Positions 2,350-17,309 of a stretch of 27,085 nucleotides of DNA are shown in pieces (the stretch's first letter is position 1; each line of letters begins with the position of its first letter). Where the stretch lies: the IMG/VR virus record IMGVR_UViG_3300031227_000338, positions 1 to 27,085 of that record; one strand, 5' to 3'. Origin of the DNA: a virus. Under the pieces are notes generated by a model. It saw only the letters and a program-made list of their open reading frames with translations, made no database searches and was not told the origin of the DNA. Position numbers and translations under genes: made by a program.

Positions 2350-2958
2350 ATGGACACGATAACCAGAAAATATAATCTTTACCAGTATCAGGAGCTTTCA
2401 GAACAGGCCAAACAGAAGGTGCAGCAGATGTTTGGCGAGGATCCGATTGATGAAACGAGCATGCTGACAGAAGACTTTAAAATGTTACTTGAACAGGATA
2501 ACCCGTATTTTACAAACCCAGAATTTCAGTGGAGTTTGGGCCATTGCCAGGGAGACGGATTGAGCTTTTCCTGTGATGTTGATGTTTTAGCGTTTGTAAA
2601 GGCAGAACTGGAAAGCATTAAAAAACCTAGTGTGCAGAATGTGATTTCTAACTATTTAACAATCAGGTCAACGGGGAATAAAGGCCGATATTGTTACGCA
2701 TCAAAGAACGATATTGATTTTGATTTTGAGACAGATGTCGGTGGGAACATAGAGCAGGTTTTTGATTCTGTAATTAAAGCCGTACAGGATAAGTATATGG
2801 ATCTTTGTGCTAAATTCGAGAAAAGCGGTTATGAGCAATATGCTTACAGGTATTCCGACGAGAACGCACAGGAAATGTCTGAGGGGAATGATTACACTTA
2901 CCTTGAAGACGGAACGATGTTTAACAAAGAGGAAGGAGATACACCGAGCAATGGTTGA
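2350..2958 (+). CDS. Conserved phage-type hypothetical protein (202 aa)
   Basis: ATG at 2350 with AAAGGAGG at 2334-2341. The product has an N-terminal helix (YQELSEQAKQKV), a central strand-rich part with the motif QWSLGHCQGDGLSFSC at residues about 60-75, and an acidic tail. The S-L-x-x-CQGDG-x-S-F pattern recurs in many phage and mobile-element hypothetical proteins. Some have been labelled antitoxin-like, but I see nothing here that proves that role. Soluble, acidic, no membrane segment. Its last codons overlap the start of the zinc-ribbon-like gene at 2951, so the two are probably co-translated. Confidence 0.75.
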   Translation: MDTITRKYNLYQYQELSEQAKQKVQQMFGEDPIDETSMLTEDFKMLLEQDNPYFTNPEFQWSLGHCQGDGLSFSCDVDVLAFVKAELESIKKPSVQNVISNYLTIRSTGNKGRYCYASKNDIDFDFETDVGGNIEQVFDSVIKAVQDKYMDLCAKFEKSGYEQYAYRYSDENAQEMSEGNDYTYLEDGTMFNKEEGDTPSNG

Positions 2959-3124
2959 ATATACAACAGTACCCATGGACGACGGGACGGACGATTTTAT
3001 TTTGCAGTGTAACAACTGCGGAGCATTTAAACTGAATGCAGGAAGTGGATCCGAAATCGAACACCACAAGACCTGCAAACCTAACGACGATGACTGGACG
3101 GAAGGAGCAGGCGAGTCATGGTAA
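2951..3124 (+). CDS. Small zinc-ribbon-like protein (57 aa)
   Basis: ATG at 2951 overlaps the stop of the preceding gene; a second ATG at 2975 could also be used. An AAGGAG lies upstream at rather long spacing. The product carries a likely metal site: QCNNC around residues 19-22 and HHKTC around residues 41-45, that is CxxC...HxxxC. The rest is acidic. Small treble-clef or ribbon proteins like this are frequent in phages and often bind nucleic acid or a host protein, but the target here is unknown. The frame stays open upstream into the preceding gene in another frame; that part is a shadow. Confidence 0.65.
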   Translation: MVEYTTVPMDDGTDDFILQCNNCGAFKLNAGSGSEIEHHKTCKPNDDDWTEGAGESW

Positions 3125-3174
3125 AGAAGTAAACAGAGACATTAACCCATAATTTTAAAAACGGAGACAGTATC

Positions 3175-3759
3175 ATGGCACAAAAAAAAGTAGTTAAATC
3201 ACCAGCGATCAAAATCCAATTTATGAACCTTATTTTAGTGGGAGATTCCCCGTTGGTTTGTCATGCTTGGAGCGAAAAGGCAAAGAAAATAATGGCAGAC
3301 GACCAGGACCCCGAAAAGGTCAAGCCTCCAAGAACAAAAAGAGACAAAATAGCAGAATATCAGGCGAGCATGTATCATCTTCCGAACGGAAAACATGGTT
3401 TCCCGTCAATTGCTTTTAAATCTTCCGCCGTCCGAGCAGCAAAGAACGTGGAAGGGATGACCATGGCCGACACCAGAAACGCTTTTCATGTTCAGGGGGA
3501 ACTGGTAGAGATAAAAGGAAAACCGGAAATGCGTGAGGATATGATCCGCGTTAAAACTGGCGGAGCAGATTTGCGCTATCGTGGAGGTTTTAACGAATGG
3601 GAGGTTGAGATTACCGTCCGGTTTAATTCTTCAGTTATTAGCGCAGAAAAGATTGTGAACCTGTTTAATCTTGCAGGGTTTGGCGTAGGTGTTGGAGAAT
3701 ACAGACCAGAAAAAAACGGATCTTGGGGCTTATTTCATGTTAAAACGGAGAAGGAATAA
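3175..3759 (+). CDS. Conserved phage protein with Gly-rich C-terminal motif (194 aa)
   Basis: ATG at 3175 with GGAG upstream. After a basic N-terminus there is a hydrophobic strand (MNLILVGDSPLVCH), a charged linker, the segment GFPSIAFKSSAVRAAK at residues about 76-91, strands around residues 110-150, and a glycine-rich end GFGVGVGEYRPEKNGSWG near residues 168-185. I recall this layout from many uncharacterised phage proteins. The alternation of strands and helices ending in a Gly-rich loop also resembles RAMP/Cas7-like folds, but that is only a structural guess. It is coupled to the next gene by a TAATG overlap, so the two likely act together. No signal peptide or membrane segment. Confidence 0.75.
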   Translation: MAQKKVVKSPAIKIQFMNLILVGDSPLVCHAWSEKAKKIMADDQDPEKVKPPRTKRDKIAEYQASMYHLPNGKHGFPSIAFKSSAVRAAKNVEGMTMADTRNAFHVQGELVEIKGKPEMREDMIRVKTGGADLRYRGGFNEWEVEITVRFNSSVISAEKIVNLFNLAGFGVGVGEYRPEKNGSWGLFHVKTEKE

Positions 3760-4205
3760 TGGAATATGACTGGAAATACGGCTCAAGAATCTCCGGTAAT
3801 GCGAGTGTTGTTGGCGGTCAGATTGAATCTATACGTCAAAAAAAGGGCGGTTTTGTTGGTGCTAGAGACGTTTTGCAGAGTGCAAAGAGAAAAACATCTC
3901 CCCTGCACGAATATTTTGAATGGGACGATGGTTTGGCTGCTGATGAATATCGGTTAGTTCAGGCAAGAGAATTGCTGCGAGCTATTGTTATTGTCAGGGA
4001 AGATGTTACTGTTCGAGGATTTGTAAACGTCCAAATTGAAGACGATCTAACTTATACCAGTATTGACTTTGCTTTGTCAGATGCGGAGTTGAGGTTACAA
4101 GTTATAAATAAAGCAAAAAAAGAAATGATATCATGGCATCAAAGGTATAAAGATTTAGTAGAGTTTAATCCCATTCATGAAGCTATTGCGAGGTTTGCAG
4201 ACTAG
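3759..4205 (+). CDS. Conserved phage protein, partner of the preceding gene (148 aa)
   Basis: ATG at 3759 overlaps the preceding stop (TAATG), with GGAGAAGGA just upstream. The protein has a small basic N-terminal part (GGFVGARDVLQSAK), the block SPLHEYFEWDDGLAADEYR at residues about 47-65, a strand-rich centre and a C-terminal helix with WHQRYKDLVEF. The PLHxYFEWDD block is one I associate with conserved hypothetical phage proteins of unknown function. The TAG stop (4203-4205) sits exactly where the G-rich pentamer array begins, so the array may have replaced or displaced the original 3' flank. Confidence 0.75.
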   Translation: MEYDWKYGSRISGNASVVGGQIESIRQKKGGFVGARDVLQSAKRKTSPLHEYFEWDDGLAADEYRLVQARELLRAIVIVREDVTVRGFVNVQIEDDLTYTSIDFALSDAELRLQVINKAKKEMISWHQRYKDLVEFNPIHEAIARFAD

Positions 4206-4518
4206 GCAGGCGTGGACTGGCGGGGCGGGGCATGGTCAGGCCCGGCGCGGAATGGCTTGGCAGGCATGGCCAGGCGCGGTGAGGCAAGGCGAGGTGAGTG
4301 GGGCGAGGCATGGCAGGCGTGGTCAGGTCTGGTTTGGCATCGCTGGGCGAGGCGAGGTATGGCGGGGCAGGCTGGGCGCGGCAAGGTTCGGCGGGGAGAG
4401 GCAAGGCGTGGCAGGGCAGGGCAGGTTAGGCGTGGCGAGGCAGGGCAGGGCACGGCAGGCTAGGCGTGGCGAGGTTTGGCTTTGCAAGGTCAGGCATGGC
4501 AGGGCGAGGCAGGCAGGG
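4204..4518 (+). repeat. G-rich degenerate pentamer array (GGCNN, about 63 units)
   Basis: Here a GG pair ends almost every fifth base: 4210, 4215, 4220 and so on to 4260, then in step again after single-base shortenings near 4264, 4303, 4317, 4371, 4425, 4459 and 4513. The unit is GG followed usually by C (sometimes T) and two variable bases. Only a few units lack the GG (near 4299, 4342 and 4484). Local copying is visible: the 14-mer TAGGCGTGGCGAGG occurs at 4427-4440 and 4461-4474. Open frames run through it on both strands only because it lacks stop codons; the register slips argue against coding. The strand asymmetry (G-rich on +) and GG-N3 spacing would suit two-quartet G-quadruplexes. 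No spacers and no reverse transcriptase are present, so it is neither CRISPR nor a diversity-generating cassette. Confidence 0.9.
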
Positions 4519-4544: not shown

Positions 4545-5246
4545 GTGACTAATGCAATTATTTACGCGAGGTTTTCTCCGCGCAGAAACGCTGAAACTTC
4601 AGACTCAAACGAGATCCAGAAGGCATATTGTGAACAGCATGCTCATGACAAAAAATACACTGTGGCCGGTTTTCATGAGGACAAGGCCCTTTCCGGATCC
4701 GACGCAGATCGTCCGGCTTTGTGGGCCGCCCTGGAGCAATTAGAAAAGGGCTCCGTCTTGCTGGTTTATAAGCTCGACAGACTGGCCAGAAACGTCTATC
4801 TGATGGAATTAATAAAGCAGGCAGTGAAAACCTGCGGCGCAAGGATTGAAGCCGTTGAGGGCGATGTTGAAGGCGATACGGCTGAATCTGTGCTGATTAG
4901 ACAGATACTTTCTAGTATATCGGAGTATGAACGCAAGATCATAGCCTTAAGGACTAAATTTGCAATGCAGCAACATCAGCGAAACGGAAAGAGAATGGGT
5001 AGGTTTCCGCCTTATGGTTTCCAGATCGATCCGGAAGACAATACCATGCTCATCCCGGTTGAACTAGAGCAAAAGGCAATCGTCCGGATCTGGGCGATGA
5101 AGGCCGAAGGATATGAGACTATGCAGATTGCCAGAAAGATGAACCATGAGAAGTTGCATAAGACCCGGAACGGAAATCGCTGGGCCAGAAAACAAATTGA
5201 TAAAATCTTAAGTAATCACAAACAAATAAAAGGAGACAGTAAATGA
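4545..5246 (+). CDS. Serine recombinase, resolvase/invertase type (233 aa)
   Basis: The GTG start at 4545 is chosen for its ribosome-binding site. The catalytic domain is clear: IIYARFSP near the N-terminus contains the Y-x-R-x-S nucleophile motif, followed by DKALSGSDADRPALWAALE (residues about 44-62), VYKLDRLARN (about 73-82) and SEYERKIIALRTK (about 125-137), the start of the long dimer helix. The end (GYETMQIARKMN..., WARKQIDKIL) looks like the short DNA-binding helix-turn-helix of resolvases and invertases. At 233 aa it is far shorter than large serine integrases, so resolution, inversion or mobilisation is likelier than phage integration. It is translationally coupled (ATGA) to the 197-aa gene downstream and sits next to the pentamer array and about 600 bp from a repeat-rich junction; either could hold its target. 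Confidence 0.92.
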   Translation: MTNAIIYARFSPRRNAETSDSNEIQKAYCEQHAHDKKYTVAGFHEDKALSGSDADRPALWAALEQLEKGSVLLVYKLDRLARNVYLMELIKQAVKTCGARIEAVEGDVEGDTAESVLIRQILSSISEYERKIIALRTKFAMQQHQRNGKRMGRFPPYGFQIDPEDNTMLIPVELEQKAIVRIWAMKAEGYETMQIARKMNHEKLHKTRNGNRWARKQIDKILSNHKQIKGDSK

Positions 5247-5836
5247 ACAAGAATCCAATAGATAGTTCAGTAATTGCAAAAAGGCTAGCAACTGCGCTGG
5301 ACAGAACTCAAAAGGATATTGAATCCTATTTTGACCGGGTTAAACAGGGGGCAACTGATATTATCCGGGAGAATGTAGCCGACGCAATAAGGAGTAAAAC
5401 CTTGACAGAAGATATCGCAAAGCATGTCGATAAAAATGTTTCTTTTGTTGTCGCTAAACACTTCAGGCAAAAGGACTTCAAAGGGGATCTTGACAGGAAA
5501 ATTGAATCTATTGTTGGAGAAGAATTCAGCGCTTTTATTAATAAGTCTGTAAAGGAGGTTTTTGAGGACTATTTCCGTGAGAACATCAGGGTTATGATAC
5601 AGGACTCAATAGAAAAACAAACAGACTATGTTATTGAGACGACTAAAAAGATTGCCTTAACAACTTTTACTGACGCTATATCGACAAGAGTTAAAGAGCA
5701 GTTTAATGATGTGGCTTGTAAACATGTCATTACAAAAAAGATCGACGAGCTGATGGGAGCTCTTGGGAAAAGTCACGTTAAGCGGCTTTTAGAGACTGAG
5801 CTTGAGCACAGGGAAGGGGAAAGCGACAAGCATTAA
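5243..5836 (+). CDS. All-alpha protein coupled to the recombinase (197 aa)
   Basis: ATG at 5243 overlaps the recombinase stop (ATGA) and is preceded by AAAGGAGA. The protein is predicted by eye to be almost wholly helical and charged, with repeated amphipathic stretches (RTQKDIESYFDRV, DLDRKIESIVGEEF, EKQTDYVIETTKKI) typical of coiled coils. No signal peptide, enzyme motif or known domain is recognised. Co-translation suggests it assists or controls the recombinase, for example as an accessory or synaptic factor, but that is inference only. It is the last + strand gene before the convergent junction. Confidence 0.75.
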   Translation: MNKNPIDSSVIAKRLATALDRTQKDIESYFDRVKQGATDIIRENVADAIRSKTLTEDIAKHVDKNVSFVVAKHFRQKDFKGDLDRKIESIVGEEFSAFINKSVKEVFEDYFRENIRVMIQDSIEKQTDYVIETTKKIALTTFTDAISTRVKEQFNDVACKHVITKKIDELMGALGKSHVKRLLETELEHREGESDKH

Positions 5837-7474: not shown

Positions 7475-9724
7475 CTATTCAGGTTCTTGTTTTGTTTCTT
7501 CCAATCCATACGGGTATGCCCAGACCATCAAGGCGCGTTTCCCCGGTTTTGTTCCGATTACAACATGTTTTTGTTCTTGTAAATCAGCTAAATGGTCGTC
7601 GCGTTGACGTTTGCTGTGTTTCGGGGTTTTTTGTGCAAGTACACTTTTCGGGATCCCTTTTGCTCCGGCCTTTTTAATATGGCTAAATATTCTCAGTTTG
7701 TCTTTTTCGTAAACACTTTCTACGACATGGTTCTCTACCATATTCACAGTTCTGGTCAGGAGTGCATTTGCCAGTTGACACGCCCAATCAGCGTGCATAT
7801 CTGAGATCTCGGGATTGTCGAATCTATCCCCTGCAGCGACATTAAGCGCAAGCCGGCGAGCGTTCTCCCCGGACTTTAACCATAATTTATCAACACCTTT
7901 ATTCTGGTTCTGTCTGGCCATTCGGTCTGACGCTAGTTCAAAATCCATAAAGCATTCATGGGCCTGCGCGTTTGTAGGGATTACTGCCGGGAATATGCCC
8001 GTTGCCGCGTCGATGTCCGGAGTTCCTGCAGGGGCCATAATTGATCTTGTCCACCATGCCTGCAGCTGAGTGACCAGATGCTCTGGAACAGGTTTTGTTT
8101 CGTGTTCTTTCCATCTTTTAGCTGGATTTGTGTTTGATATAAATATCAACACACGACCCAGCCATCCGTCCTCGATCTCTGCAGGACTGATACCCTCGCA
8201 AAGCTTTTCAGGTGTCGTCGTACCATATAGGCAGCAACATGGTTGAACGATAACCTTGCGCTCCTGTTTTGCATATTCTTTGCCATAATATGTCGATTTC
8301 GCACATGAATAAAGTTTCATTAATATCGGGACAATAGATGCTAAATGTGGATTAACTCCGCCAGAAGCCTTGATGCTACCCATCATGTGGCCAATTTCAT
8401 CCATGGGGAAATATATCGAAGGAGATTCTGTCAGGCGTGATTCGATCGCTGCATCTCCAGTGACACTTTCTCCGCCCAAAATTGCGTGAATCCCTGCGGT
8501 TTCTATCAGTCTTTTAATCTGATCTCTGGCGTGCTCCTTCCCTGCGCTGGAAGGAGCGACACCCATTGCGTACAGGTTTGTCCGATTGTTCCATTGATCT
8601 CTGACCTTCTGTCCGAATAGTGCTCCACAGAAAGGCAGGACAGCCCCAAGAGTGAGTAAAGGTTGATCTTTTAAAGCAGTTGCGTTGATCCATGCACAAA
8701 TGTCTCCAATTAAGCCTGGCGGTTTCAATAACCATTCAGGGAATGCTTCTTCAGGTTTTATCTCGGAAACTGATTCAATTCTGGGTTCGTTTTTTACTTC
8801 TTTTTTCACACTGGCCAATAATCCAGCTGCCAGTTTTCCGCCATAGTCCATGAGTTCCTCATCGTCTGGCCTTAACCCGTATTCTTCTAATAACCAGCCT
8901 GCAGGTTTCTTCCCGGGCGTTTTCTTAGCTTCATGTACTTTTCTCTCGAAGTCTTTCCGTTCCTTTTGTGGATCCCATGGCGGATTGCACATGGGATTGT
9001 ATACGCTCCATAACAGCTGGATTGCCGTACCCTCATCGAGTTCAAAACCAACTACCAAAGAGCGAGCGGCCCATAATAGAGCCTCATGGCCGTCCTGTCC
9101 CTGATTTGCCGGCGCACATTTCTTCAGGTACAGTTTCGCTCTGTCAATAATGTCTGTTTTGGGAAGATTTACTTTGTTTATTATTTCCCTGGGCTTTTCC
9201 CATGGTAATGCCGGTGCTTCTTTTTCTGGCTTCAGATGTTCCGGATATTCTGCCAGCTCGACATCATCAGGGCCATGTTTCGGCATCCATTGATACTTCT
9301 TCCCGTTTGGATGCGTGGACGGGGTTAGAATAATATAATAGCCGTCACCCCGGATATCGATTCCGTTCCGGAAGTTGTTTCTATTTGCAGGAGGATCGTC
9401 TGATTTAAACAGATAATGCGCTCCGCCTCTCGGTGTGATCTGAACGGCTGTTTTTGGCATGGTTTCGGAGAATTCTTCGAGAGATTCAAACCCGTCCTCA
9501 CCTTTCTCTGGGTCATAGTCGATATCGACGGTATAAACTCCGGAAGCTTCACCACAGGCAAGTCCGATATTTGCCTCTGGCCATCTTTGCCACCAGGCGC
9601 GAATGGTTTTTTCGTCGGTCGTTGCGTCTCTGCAGCCATGTTTTGTCAGCGGTGTTTTGACTTTAGCTCCACATGGGAAGATGTGCCAGCCTCTTTGCGA
9701 GTAGTTCAGTGCGTGATTAATCAT
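7475..9724 (-). CDS. Prim-Pol primase-polymerase with DUF3987-type ATPase (749 aa)
   Basis: Residues 1-165 form a bifunctional primase-polymerase (archaeo-eukaryotic primase) domain: GWHIFPCG near the start, VYTVDIDY with metal ligands D67 and D69, GGAHYLF with H103, and GIDIRGDGYYIILTPS around 121-136. Residues about 330-560 resemble the DUF3987 primase-associated helicase/ATPase, with Walker A GVAPSSAGKE (388-397), a Walker B-like IYFPMDEIG (437-445) and WLGRVLIF near 521. The C-terminal 100 residues look like a winged helix. This protein probably makes primers and unwinds the fork, and because no other polymerase is in the window it may also polymerise. The ATG overlaps the helicase stop by 8 bp, so the two are co-translated. 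Confidence 0.92.
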   Translation of the reverse strand: MINHALNYSQRGWHIFPCGAKVKTPLTKHGCRDATTDEKTIRAWWQRWPEANIGLACGEASGVYTVDIDYDPEKGEDGFESLEEFSETMPKTAVQITPRGGAHYLFKSDDPPANRNNFRNGIDIRGDGYYIILTPSTHPNGKKYQWMPKHGPDDVELAEYPEHLKPEKEAPALPWEKPREIINKVNLPKTDIIDRAKLYLKKCAPANQGQDGHEALLWAARSLVVGFELDEGTAIQLLWSVYNPMCNPPWDPQKERKDFERKVHEAKKTPGKKPAGWLLEEYGLRPDDEELMDYGGKLAAGLLASVKKEVKNEPRIESVSEIKPEEAFPEWLLKPPGLIGDICAWINATALKDQPLLTLGAVLPFCGALFGQKVRDQWNNRTNLYAMGVAPSSAGKEHARDQIKRLIETAGIHAILGGESVTGDAAIESRLTESPSIYFPMDEIGHMMGSIKASGGVNPHLASIVPILMKLYSCAKSTYYGKEYAKQERKVIVQPCCCLYGTTTPEKLCEGISPAEIEDGWLGRVLIFISNTNPAKRWKEHETKPVPEHLVTQLQAWWTRSIMAPAGTPDIDAATGIFPAVIPTNAQAHECFMDFELASDRMARQNQNKGVDKLWLKSGENARRLALNVAAGDRFDNPEISDMHADWACQLANALLTRTVNMVENHVVESVYEKDKLRIFSHIKKAGAKGIPKSVLAQKTPKHSKRQRDDHLADLQEQKHVVIGTKPGKRALMVWAYPYGLEETKQEPE

Positions 9725-14906: not shown

Positions 14907-15482
14907 CTATCGCTCCCATGGCGGTTTAGTTTTGGTTGATGACGTAGTTGCTGGTTTGATGGTTTTTTTTGCCTGAGGCTTTGCCTTTGTGGTCCCACTG
15001 TCTGGCTCAGTACCAGCAGTCGCTTCTTTTTCTTCTTTTTCTTCTTCTGCTTCTACTTCCTGATCCGGGTTAGCTGGCTTGTACGTCCGGACTTCGTTCT
15101 CAGCTTCACGATCACCGTCACCAGCCTTAACTTTGAGCTTGACGATAATTATTTTCTCGATCAGTTCCTGGCTGTCGGTAATCGCAGCCAAGCCAAGGGC
15201 CTGCCCAAGAGCGGCCAGTTGCTTAATGCCAATCTCAACGCATTTCGAATTTGGGTTGCTAAGGTTAATGTTATCAAAGACTTTCCGGCCCTCATATTCT
15301 TCTCCAATAACAGAAAGCTGAAGTTTGAGATATGATCCATCGCCTTTTTTAGTCTCTTTTACTTCTGCTTTCTCGATGAACATGTGGTATTCACCAGGAG
15401 GCAAAGGTTTAAAGTCTTCTGTCTTTTCATGCTGGCCTGGCTCGAAAGCGTTCCCACCATAACTATCTGAAATATCGCCCAT
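14907..15482 (-). CDS. DUF669-family single-strand DNA-binding-like protein (191 aa)
   Basis: ATG at 15482 with AAGGAG upstream. Residues 20-105 match the DUF669 pattern: LPPGEYHMFIEKAEVKETK, GSYLKLQLSVIGEEYEGRKVFDNINL, and a helical GIKQLAALGQALGL. These phage proteins are thought to act like single-strand DNA-binding proteins. The C-terminal third is an acidic, then basic, low-complexity tail (EAEEEKEEKE, KPQAKKTIKP) ending in PPWER; disordered tails of this kind recruit partners in SSB. It lies immediately downstream of the Sak4-like ATPase, a common pairing. Confidence 0.82.
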   Translation of the reverse strand: MGDISDSYGGNAFEPGQHEKTEDFKPLPPGEYHMFIEKAEVKETKKGDGSYLKLQLSVIGEEYEGRKVFDNINLSNPNSKCVEIGIKQLAALGQALGLAAITDSQELIEKIIIVKLKVKAGDGDREAENEVRTYKPANPDQEVEAEEEKEEKEATAGTEPDSGTTKAKPQAKKTIKPATTSSTKTKPPWER

Positions 15483-15506: not shown

Positions 15507-17309
15507 TTATTTAACTACCTTAGTCAATGCTTTCATAAATTCATTCCAGTCAAGAGGCAGTTCATATGGCAATCGGCCATAAGGGCCACGACCACCACCC
15601 GGATGAGCTGGTCTTTTCTGGGTGAACAGAAATCGGAATCCACCAGTTACGTCAATACCGCGTTTCTTTTCCTGTCCAAACCCTTTGTCTTCTTTCTGCA
15701 CCTTAACTTTAGTGTTGCAAAACAGAATTACATCTGCCCAACGAAAAAGCATATTTACGGCTTTCTCGTTAATGTCAAGAATGTACTGATCGTAGCTGTC
15801 ACCGGATGGATCGTCAAAGCGTTTAACCTTAACATGTCCGATAATAATACTGGACATCCCTTTGTGGCTTCTCAGGGCGTCCAACCCTTCTGTGATCTGT
15901 CTCCAATAGTTCACTGATTCGGTGTATCCTTTGCCATACCCACCGCCAACGGCCTCAATATTCTTTACGTTTGCAGCGTCGCAAACAGCGTTCCAGACAA
16001 GAGGCTCCATCGCGCTTGCGCTGTCTAAAACTACGGTTCTGTGCTCATGTTCTTCGGAGTAAAGGGATCCAAGTGCTTCGATAATATCTTCAAATTTATT
16101 GCAAACTGGAAACTTTGGGATTTCCAAGTCGTCTGCTCCCTCTTCACCTTTCATCGATAATAGGATAGGAGCGTTCAAGCCGGTCTTGAATATTTTATTG
16201 TCCTTAAATTGCGTTCCGCAGGAAAAGGTCGTGTTGTGTGTTACGACCAAATCTCGTCCCGCTAGATAGGTGTGAGAGGGTGAATCGACGGATATACATT
16301 TAACAGGGACGGACTTTACAGGTGTAACGGAGACGATAGCATCTTTATTGGCTTTCCTTCTGGAGTTTTTTGTTTTAAAGCAGTTAAACTTAAACTTTGA
16401 AAACCTAAAAGGATTTTCTTTCGGGAAAAATGCTACACGAAAATTGGGCCCACAATCTTTGCCATTAAGTTTTGCACGACATCTTGTAATAGATGCTTTG
16501 ACCCCGAGAGATCGAAGCAGTTCGATAAATCCGTCACAGAGACACTCTTTGACCGTTGAGAATTCACACTGGCCTTTGTTGTTGTCGTAGCAACATCCGT
16601 CAGTATCCATGAGCCCAGCCAGCAAGCTTCTCCTGTCTTCTTCGGTACTTTCCCAAACTGAAGCATGGGGGATGTGCTTATTGCCTAGCAGGTTTCTGTT
16701 TCTTAGTTTTACTTTAAGACCTAAGATCGTAGAAGTCTTGCAGCCAGCAGTTTGGTATGGTTTACCAGTTGATCCCAAATTATTTCCAATTAGAGCGTCC
16801 CTGTCTGATATTGTTACTCGACCATCGCTAGAACTTCCATCTCCGAGCCAAACTCCCAAAACATATGGGTCAATGCCTATTACTGAAGTCTTCTTTATCT
16901 TGAGCGGGAGCGTGATTGGGACTGCATGATTGTAACGATCTCCGTTGGGAGGTCTAAGGGTCTTAAGGATTTGGCCTGTAGTCAACACTCGTTCTTTATT
17001 GTCCCGTATCGACCTTGTGAGCCATTGATGCTCTTTATCGGCTATCAATGAGGCCCCGCTCTTAAACTTCACTTCATAGCAGGTTCGTTTTTCCATGATA
17101 CCCGTCACATCGGTAACGCGTACCATGCTGCCGTCTCTATCAAAGACATAATCCCCTCTTTTAATAAATTTCAGTGGTTGCCATCCCCTGTTTGTAAAAA
17201 TTGGGGTATTGTAGTCGAGAGCCTTCCCGATCTTTTCAACACCTAGAACCAGGATCCTTGGTGCTCTTAAAATTGTTTCTTTTTTAATACTGTTAAGGTC
17301 AAACGTCAT
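15507..17309 (-). CDS. Sak4-like RecA-fold ATPase interrupted by an intein (600-aa precursor)
   Basis: Extein residues 1-29 (ending VLGVEKIGK) and 360-600 (starting TTFSCG) together rebuild a Walker A, G-V-E-K-I-G-K-T-T, with the intein placed after the lysine. HRTVVLDSASAMEPL supplies Walker B, and SSIIIGHVKVKRFDDP is the later conserved strand of the phage nucleotide-binding family related to Sak4. The mature enzyme would be about 270 aa, normal for the family. Sak4 proteins are ATP-dependent single-strand annealing or strand-exchange factors working with SSB. Until the intein leaves, the ATP site is split, so activity depends on splicing. ATG overlaps the 73-aa gene upstream. Confidence 0.87.
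   Translation of the reverse strand: MTFDLNSIKKETILRAPRILVLGVEKIGKALDYNTPIFTNRGWQPLKFIKRGDYVFDRDGSMVRVTDVTGIMEKRTCYEVKFKSGASLIADKEHQWLTRSIRDNKERVLTTGQILKTLRPPNGDRYNHAVPITLPLKIKKTSVIGIDPYVLGVWLGDGSSSDGRVTISDRDALIGNNLGSTGKPYQTAGCKTSTILGLKVKLRNRNLLGNKHIPHASVWESTEEDRRSLLAGLMDTDGCCYDNNKGQCEFSTVKECLCDGFIELLRSLGVKASITRCRAKLNGKDCGPNFRVAFFPKENPFRFSKFKFNCFKTKNSRRKANKDAIVSVTPVKSVPVKCISVDSPSHTYLAGRDLVVTHNTTFSCGTQFKDNKIFKTGLNAPILLSMKGEEGADDLEIPKFPVCNKFEDIIEALGSLYSEEHEHRTVVLDSASAMEPLVWNAVCDAANVKNIEAVGGGYGKGYTESVNYWRQITEGLDALRSHKGMSSIIIGHVKVKRFDDPSGDSYDQYILDINEKAVNMLFRWADVILFCNTKVKVQKEDKGFGQEKKRGIDVTGGFRFLFTQKRPAHPGGGRGPYGRLPYELPLDWNEFMKALTKVVK
16233..17222 (-). mobile_element. Intein with LAGLIDADG homing endonuclease, class 3-type
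   Basis: Residues 30-359 of the precursor (330 aa). The first residue is Ala, not Cys or Ser, and the last are T357-H358-N359 with Thr at +1. Splicing block B contains EHQWLT, where W96 is two residues after the block-B His; block F contains VKCISV with C338; block G contains T357. Trp, Cys and Thr at these places match the WCT triad of class 3 inteins, in which the block F Cys starts splicing. The endonuclease has two LAGLIDADG-like helices, YVLGVWLGDG (149-158) and LLAGLMDTDG (229-238), both with the catalytic Asp kept, so homing may still work. Confidence 0.88.

Follow-up and report, generated by a model that had tools for sequence, protein, structure and literature searches.

The array and the genes beside it

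The window, a 27,085-nucleotide stretch of viral DNA (positions 1 to 27,085 of IMG/VR record IMGVR_UViG_3300031227_000338), carries two small genes, an array of G-rich pentamers and a serine recombinase gene in succession (Table 1). The array was picked out from the raw sequence alone by the author of an earlier note. GG recurs every five bases across 4204-4518 (315 bp), on the strand that agrees with the direction of transcription. As that note had observed, the array starts where the 148-aa gene stops: the units run from 4205, the G of TAG (4203-4205), to about 4518. Autocorrelation, proposed there as a check, bore out a period of five with two free positions. Identity at lag 5 was 0.60 versus 0.345 in dinucleotide shuffles (z = 9.2), and lag 10 gave z = 8.1; of the 61 GG-to-GG spacings, 51 are five bases long and seven are four. 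Four other IMG/VR contigs (L006-L009) carry the same array, without a difference wherever they overlap it, so that it is not a chimeric piece of assembly, an outcome the earlier note had allowed for. This confirmed that the array is real. Its suggested growth by local duplication is likewise in line with the data, the sequence TAGGCGTGGCGAGG occurring at 4427 and again at 4461, 34 bp apart.

Table 1. Features of the locus in the window
Feature	Position	Strand	Remarks
vipr gene, 194-aa Cas7-like RAMP protein, phrog_4652	3175..3759	+	Profile match to 36pp; AlphaFold model
Candidate vap (accessory) gene, 148 aa, phrog_15946	3759..4205	+	Start overlaps vipr stop; partner in nearly all loci
Putative vrRNA array, GGY-NN pentamers with 4-nt GGCA units between	4205..4518	+	Periodicity, unit parse
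Guide 1 (W1): GT CT GG GG AT CA CC GC AT TT	4209..4258	+	10/10-unit matches in silico, Prim-Pol/DUF3987 genes
Guide 2 (W2): AT CA GC GA AA GA GA GG GA AT; eighth unit GTGG	4263..4311	+	10/10-unit matches in silico, AAA_25 helicase genes
Guide W4: GT CA CT TT AT TG GA GA AT GG	4316..4365	+	Parse; no target found
Guide W5: TG GC AA TC GG GA AA GT AG AG	4370..4419	+	Parse; tentative L110 match
Short guide W6, 6 units	4424..4453	+	Apparently from 34-bp partial duplication
Guide W7: TA GT GA TT TT AA CA AT AG GA	4458..4507	+	Parse; no convincing target
Serine recombinase, 233 aa from GTG 4545	4545..5246	+	Resolvase/Recombinase domains; neighbour, outside system

Two explanations of the array were discarded at this level, in agreement with the earlier note. 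A coding role was rejected since the frame changes along the whole array, which in most homologous loci lies between genes. CRISPR was rejected as well: there are no palindromic repeats with unique spacers, and the only point of contact is a RAMP-fold protein, with no match to any cas family. Sites resembling promoters or terminators were no more frequent around the array than in shuffled sequence, no Rfam family, hammerhead included, was matched in 13 loci, and no plasmid copies of the array were found.

Analysis of the 194-aa protein connected the locus with VIPR (Viral Interference Programmable Repeat), a phage-encoded relative of CRISPR described in the available text of one 2026 preprint (PMC13142463). 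Neither this protein nor the 148-aa protein matched Pfam, both belong to PHROG families of unknown function, and a search of a defence-system library was negative. When a profile of the 194-aa family was compared with solved structures, one clear match was obtained, to PDB entry 36pp, 'SUSP1 Vipr protein' (E = 1.6e-21); with the single sequence the match was weak (E = 0.0021), the two Vipr sequences being distant. In Foldseek the AlphaFold model (pLDDT 81, with low confidence at residues 33-46) matched Cas7/Csm3 RAMP subunits from CRISPR complexes of types III and VII (E about 1e-5). Residues G168, G172, R177, G182 and G185, in a G-rich C-terminal loop, are invariant or nearly so in the family; the thumb could not be located. 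On the profile and the predicted fold we assign the gene product as Vipr. A protein of the TRAP or RecT kind, each subunit of which binds five bases, had also been considered and was dropped after these matches.

The 148-aa protein was modelled with a pLDDT of 92, and a fold search with the model returned weak winged-helix-like matches, none of them significant. A conserved partner of vipr, it is a candidate for the accessory (Vap) protein and probably has this role; it matched no published vap family.

Sensitive blastn of the array against phage records gave 27 matches, all in Mycobacterium phages; the four records examined first were Cheoctovirus. In these the array immediately precedes the gene for a relative of the 194-aa protein (38% identity), and next comes one for a relative of the 148-aa protein (32%). 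By tblastn the 194-aa protein was found in 34 phage records (27 Mycobacterium, 5 Gordonia, one cyanophage and one Pseudomonas), and a scan of IMG/VR yielded 18 loci. Scanning for GG chains of period 5 detected, in most of these loci, a same-strand array close to the vipr homologue, and weaker period-5 tracts at the equivalent place in L013-L017. Among 99 unrelated control loci (956 kb) there were no arrays, the best chain score being 5.5 versus 47 in the window. Among the homologous loci compared, vipr is present wherever there is an array; the gene pairs with such arrays are those of the window, itself a viral record, and of mycobacterial, Gordonia, cyanobacterial and uncultivated phages. A homologue of the 148-aa protein accompanies vipr nearly everywhere. 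The gene following vipr in the Pseudomonas phage is a vap candidate by position only, and in the partial locus L023 no homologue was found. The recombinase behaves differently. Its GTG start lies about 27 bases after the end of the array, and the earlier note had suggested a link between the two or a recombinase target; this suggestion is not supported. Contigs almost identical to the window are the only ones in which the gene adjoins the array; in every other homologous locus it is missing from that place. By this comparison it is a neighbour that is not conserved and not part of the system.

Some of these relatives deserve a separate remark. In L003 (Donkeykong gene 48, 2950-3336) a 'hypothetical protein' is annotated over the guide array, and similar annotations exist in other Cheoctovirus records; these gene calls are probably spurious, lying over non-coding RNA. 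The tracts of L013-L017 (about 6.3-6.6 kb, after vipr and vap) are degenerate; a different repeat consensus or decay could account for them. At L023:4938-5351 the match to vipr is confined to its C-terminal part, no array is present in the DNA examined, and the system is possibly broken.

Units, separators and proposed guides

According to the preprint, a VIPR system comprises a mostly phage-encoded ancestral RAMP protein, a small accessory gene and vrRNAs of alternating GGY and NN; the NN pairs recognise double-stranded DNA, and the one base skipped between them tends toward the codon wobble base (PMC13142463). The array can be described in the same terms. Its conserved part is GGY, the third position in the window's group of arrays being C in 83% and T in 12% of units, so that the unit is GGY-NN. 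The register slips, about seven by the earlier note, are not random: seven consist of the 4-base unit GGCA, and one more, placed by hand in the parse as GTGG, is a unit one base short. Units of four bases in the window's group of related arrays are GGCA in 55 of 60 cases, and in a second group of arrays GGCT in 36 of 40. Runs between off-length units have medians of 10 and 11 in the two groups, with a peak at 10 in the first.

The window array was parsed as GGCA, 10 units, GGCA, 10 units (the eighth short), GGCA, 10, GGCA, 10, GGCA, 6, GGCA, 10, GGCA. Because seven of the slips share GGCA and the 4-base units are nearly fixed in related arrays, they look like punctuation between guides, mostly of ten GGY-NN units. 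As parsed from the sequence, five guides have ten units and one has six, the range for VIPR being 9-16 repeats per vrRNA. The six-unit guide W6 and the last guide, W7, share the start TA-GT-GA owing to the 34-bp duplication. No tail or processing signal is visible between the guides, nor was the conserved 3′ tail of the SUSP1 type seen. This counts against the SUSP1 layout and not against VIPR, because array architecture differs between types according to the preprint, which also mentions staggered arrays with overlapping vrRNAs (PMC13142463). The 4-nt punctuation may correspond to these 'staggered arrays', and it may already stand in the supplement of that work.

Predicted targets of the guides

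Targets were sought in IMG/VR under the rule that one base is skipped between NN pairs, which was shown experimentally for the SUSP1 VIPR (PMC13142463). For guide 1 the eight inner units were used as the search core, and 14 loci were found. The match extends to 20 of 20 bases in three of them (L034, L036 and L039) and to 19 of 20 in three more. All six extended loci encode the peptide [VI]LGGIQPAI[LFM] in similar replication proteins, and the base passed over is the wobble base of the codon; Pfam identified Prim-Pol and DUF3987 domains in the L039 protein. In a control with two bases skipped there were seven loci, none of which extended. In silico, guide 1 thus has a match to all ten of its units in Prim-Pol/DUF3987 replication genes from other viral contigs. 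A single match in bacterial genomes, in Stenotrophomonas, was judged to be due to chance: about 0.5 matches are expected in 257 Gb, and this one does not lie in a replication gene. Three contigs of this phage contained no self-target of guide 1 at up to three mismatches, and the phage's own Prim-Pol/DUF3987 replication protein (7475-9724, minus strand) is without the guide-1 motif. Elsewhere in the window, on the minus strand, an AAA_24 ATPase gene (15507-17309) contains a Hom_end/LAGLIDADG homing-endonuclease insertion, probably an intein, and is adjoined by a gene for a DUF669 protein (14907-15482).

Guide 2 was searched with nine units (18 bases), the short eighth unit being left open. This gave 17 loci, 13 of them in codon phase. 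The open unit is GG, as in the guide, at 11 of the 17, and ten of these 11 are in phase at one helicase motif, represented by six distinct sequences. The motif in the ten loci, IQAEN[DE][DE]GD[IM], lies downstream of the Walker A motif, and three of the target proteins were identified by Pfam as AAA_25. By the same computational test, guide 2 matches 10 of 10 units of AAA_25 (RepA-like) helicase genes on other viral contigs. The matches in any one target family share their ancestry and are not independent, so that binomial values overstate their independence; agreement with the guide of bases outside the search patterns is less affected by this homology. The target contigs are viral and not known to have a host in common with this phage.

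The remaining guides were less informative. W5 has an in-phase match with two mismatches (18 of 20 bases) to a P22-type coat gene in L110, which we regard as a tentative target. For W4 no target was found at 18 bases and its 16-base matches do not extend, while W7 gave 41 core matches and no full match. For the guides other than guide 1, self-matches under the one-base rule did not exceed 7 of 10 units in the loci scanned.

Interpretation and comparison with known systems

Taken together, the protein matches, the array and its decoded units make it very probable that the locus is a phage VIPR system, with the array as its guide array and two decoded targets. It is then a further member of a very recently described group. 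The sequence-level features of VIPR that were examined agree, except for the SUSP1-type 3′ tail. What the earlier note offered as a structural DNA or RNA element holds in the broad sense of an RNA element, namely a guide array.

We infer transcription, RNP assembly, DNA binding and silencing from the preprint (PMC13142463), in which most experiments so far concern type II systems. The vipr gene would supply a Cas7-like RAMP protein and the neighbouring gene probably its accessory protein, and the array would be transcribed from the plus strand into vrRNAs. GGY would be gripped by the protein and the NN pairs would base-pair with double-stranded DNA, one target base being skipped between pairs; the 4-nt GGCA units would mark off individual guides, each with about ten NN pairs. 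The expected outcome is that replication genes of rival elements are silenced at transcription, and the phage probably uses the array in this way against its rivals. As the skipped base is the wobble position, one guide could cover a conserved protein motif whatever synonymous codons encode it, which suggests a reach across many phages. We put forward, with rather less than even confidence, a more general reading: an array format with fixed, frame-breaking 4-nt punctuation (GGCA or GGCT by lineage) and guides aimed at wobble-insensitive motifs of replication ATPases would give broad-spectrum silencing of unrelated phages and plasmids.

The division into guides has a rival explanation. The locus could be a VIPR system whose vrRNAs are staggered and overlap, the 4-nt units shifting the register without marking guide boundaries. 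Such arrays are mentioned in the available text of PMC13142463, and the lack of a visible tail or processing signal between guides would suit them; against this, the sequence of the 4-nt unit hardly varies, the commonest run length between units is 10, and in both decoded targets the match covers the ten units that lie between two separators and stops there. We consider overlapping vrRNAs possible but doubtful. Much less is to be said for an array RNA that acts as a RAMP-bound regulatory or structural RNA or as a decoy, its matches arising by chance on conserved motifs. It is true that two or three of the five full guides are without a convincing target and that gapped patterns of 16 bases do match by chance, at 7 to 41 loci per scan. 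However, bases of guides 1 and 2 that formed no part of the search patterns match much more often than chance would give, the codon phase is consistent, and the skip rule has experimental backing in SUSP1, which makes a decoy very improbable.

The reading of the earlier note, a G-quadruplex element, a recombination hotspot or a target of the adjacent serine recombinase, drew on the G-rich strand with GG every five bases and on a recombinase start only 27 bp past the array. The recombinase is absent from other array loci where vipr is always present, and the variable bases decode to genes. Since the two free bases yield gene targets under the VIPR rule, neither quadruplexes nor a hotspot are needed, and we find this reading scarcely credible.

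With the locus read as a VIPR system, its close counterparts include the arrays of Cheoctovirus (Mycobacterium) and Gordonia phages, which have homologous vipr and vap genes, GGCNN arrays and GGCA separators. The order differs: the array is upstream of the gene pair in Mycobacterium phages, between vipr and vap in Gordonia phages, the cyanophage and L011, and after vap in the window and other loci. The type II systems of SUSP1 and Pseudomonas fulva (PMC13142463; 36pp) share with the window a small RAMP protein, a small accessory gene, GGY/NN tandem repeats, a phage-encoded location and targets that can be decoded with a one-base skip at the wobble position. The SUSP1 vrRNAs, however, are each transcribed separately, at a length of about 100 nt, and carry a conserved 3′ tail, whereas the window has one continuous array divided by GGCA; and the targets of the SUSP1 and P. 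fulva systems are satellite or lysogeny genes, in contrast to the replication genes decoded here. Class 1 CRISPR-Cas (Cas7/Csm3 backbone) resembles the locus in its RAMP fold and in an RNA guide with bases periodically excluded from pairing, but it uses a contiguous spacer in place of a noncontiguous five-base code, and the window has no cas genes, CRISPR repeats or adaptation genes. The interest of the locus and of its relatives in cultured mycobacterial and Gordonia phages lies in a different array layout, which would be directly readable as punctuated guides, and in two decoded replication-ATPase targets that are concrete, testable and outside the SUSP1 group.

Other layouts were seen among the more distant homologues. 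In cyanophage Cy-LDV1 (L027) two separate arrays, at 4605-4786 and 5403-5544, lie one on each side of vap. In Pseudomonas aeruginosa phage LESphi2 (L028:3594-3898) several short GGY/NN blocks precede a distant vipr homologue, each followed by a non-repeat stretch, like the tailed type II layout.
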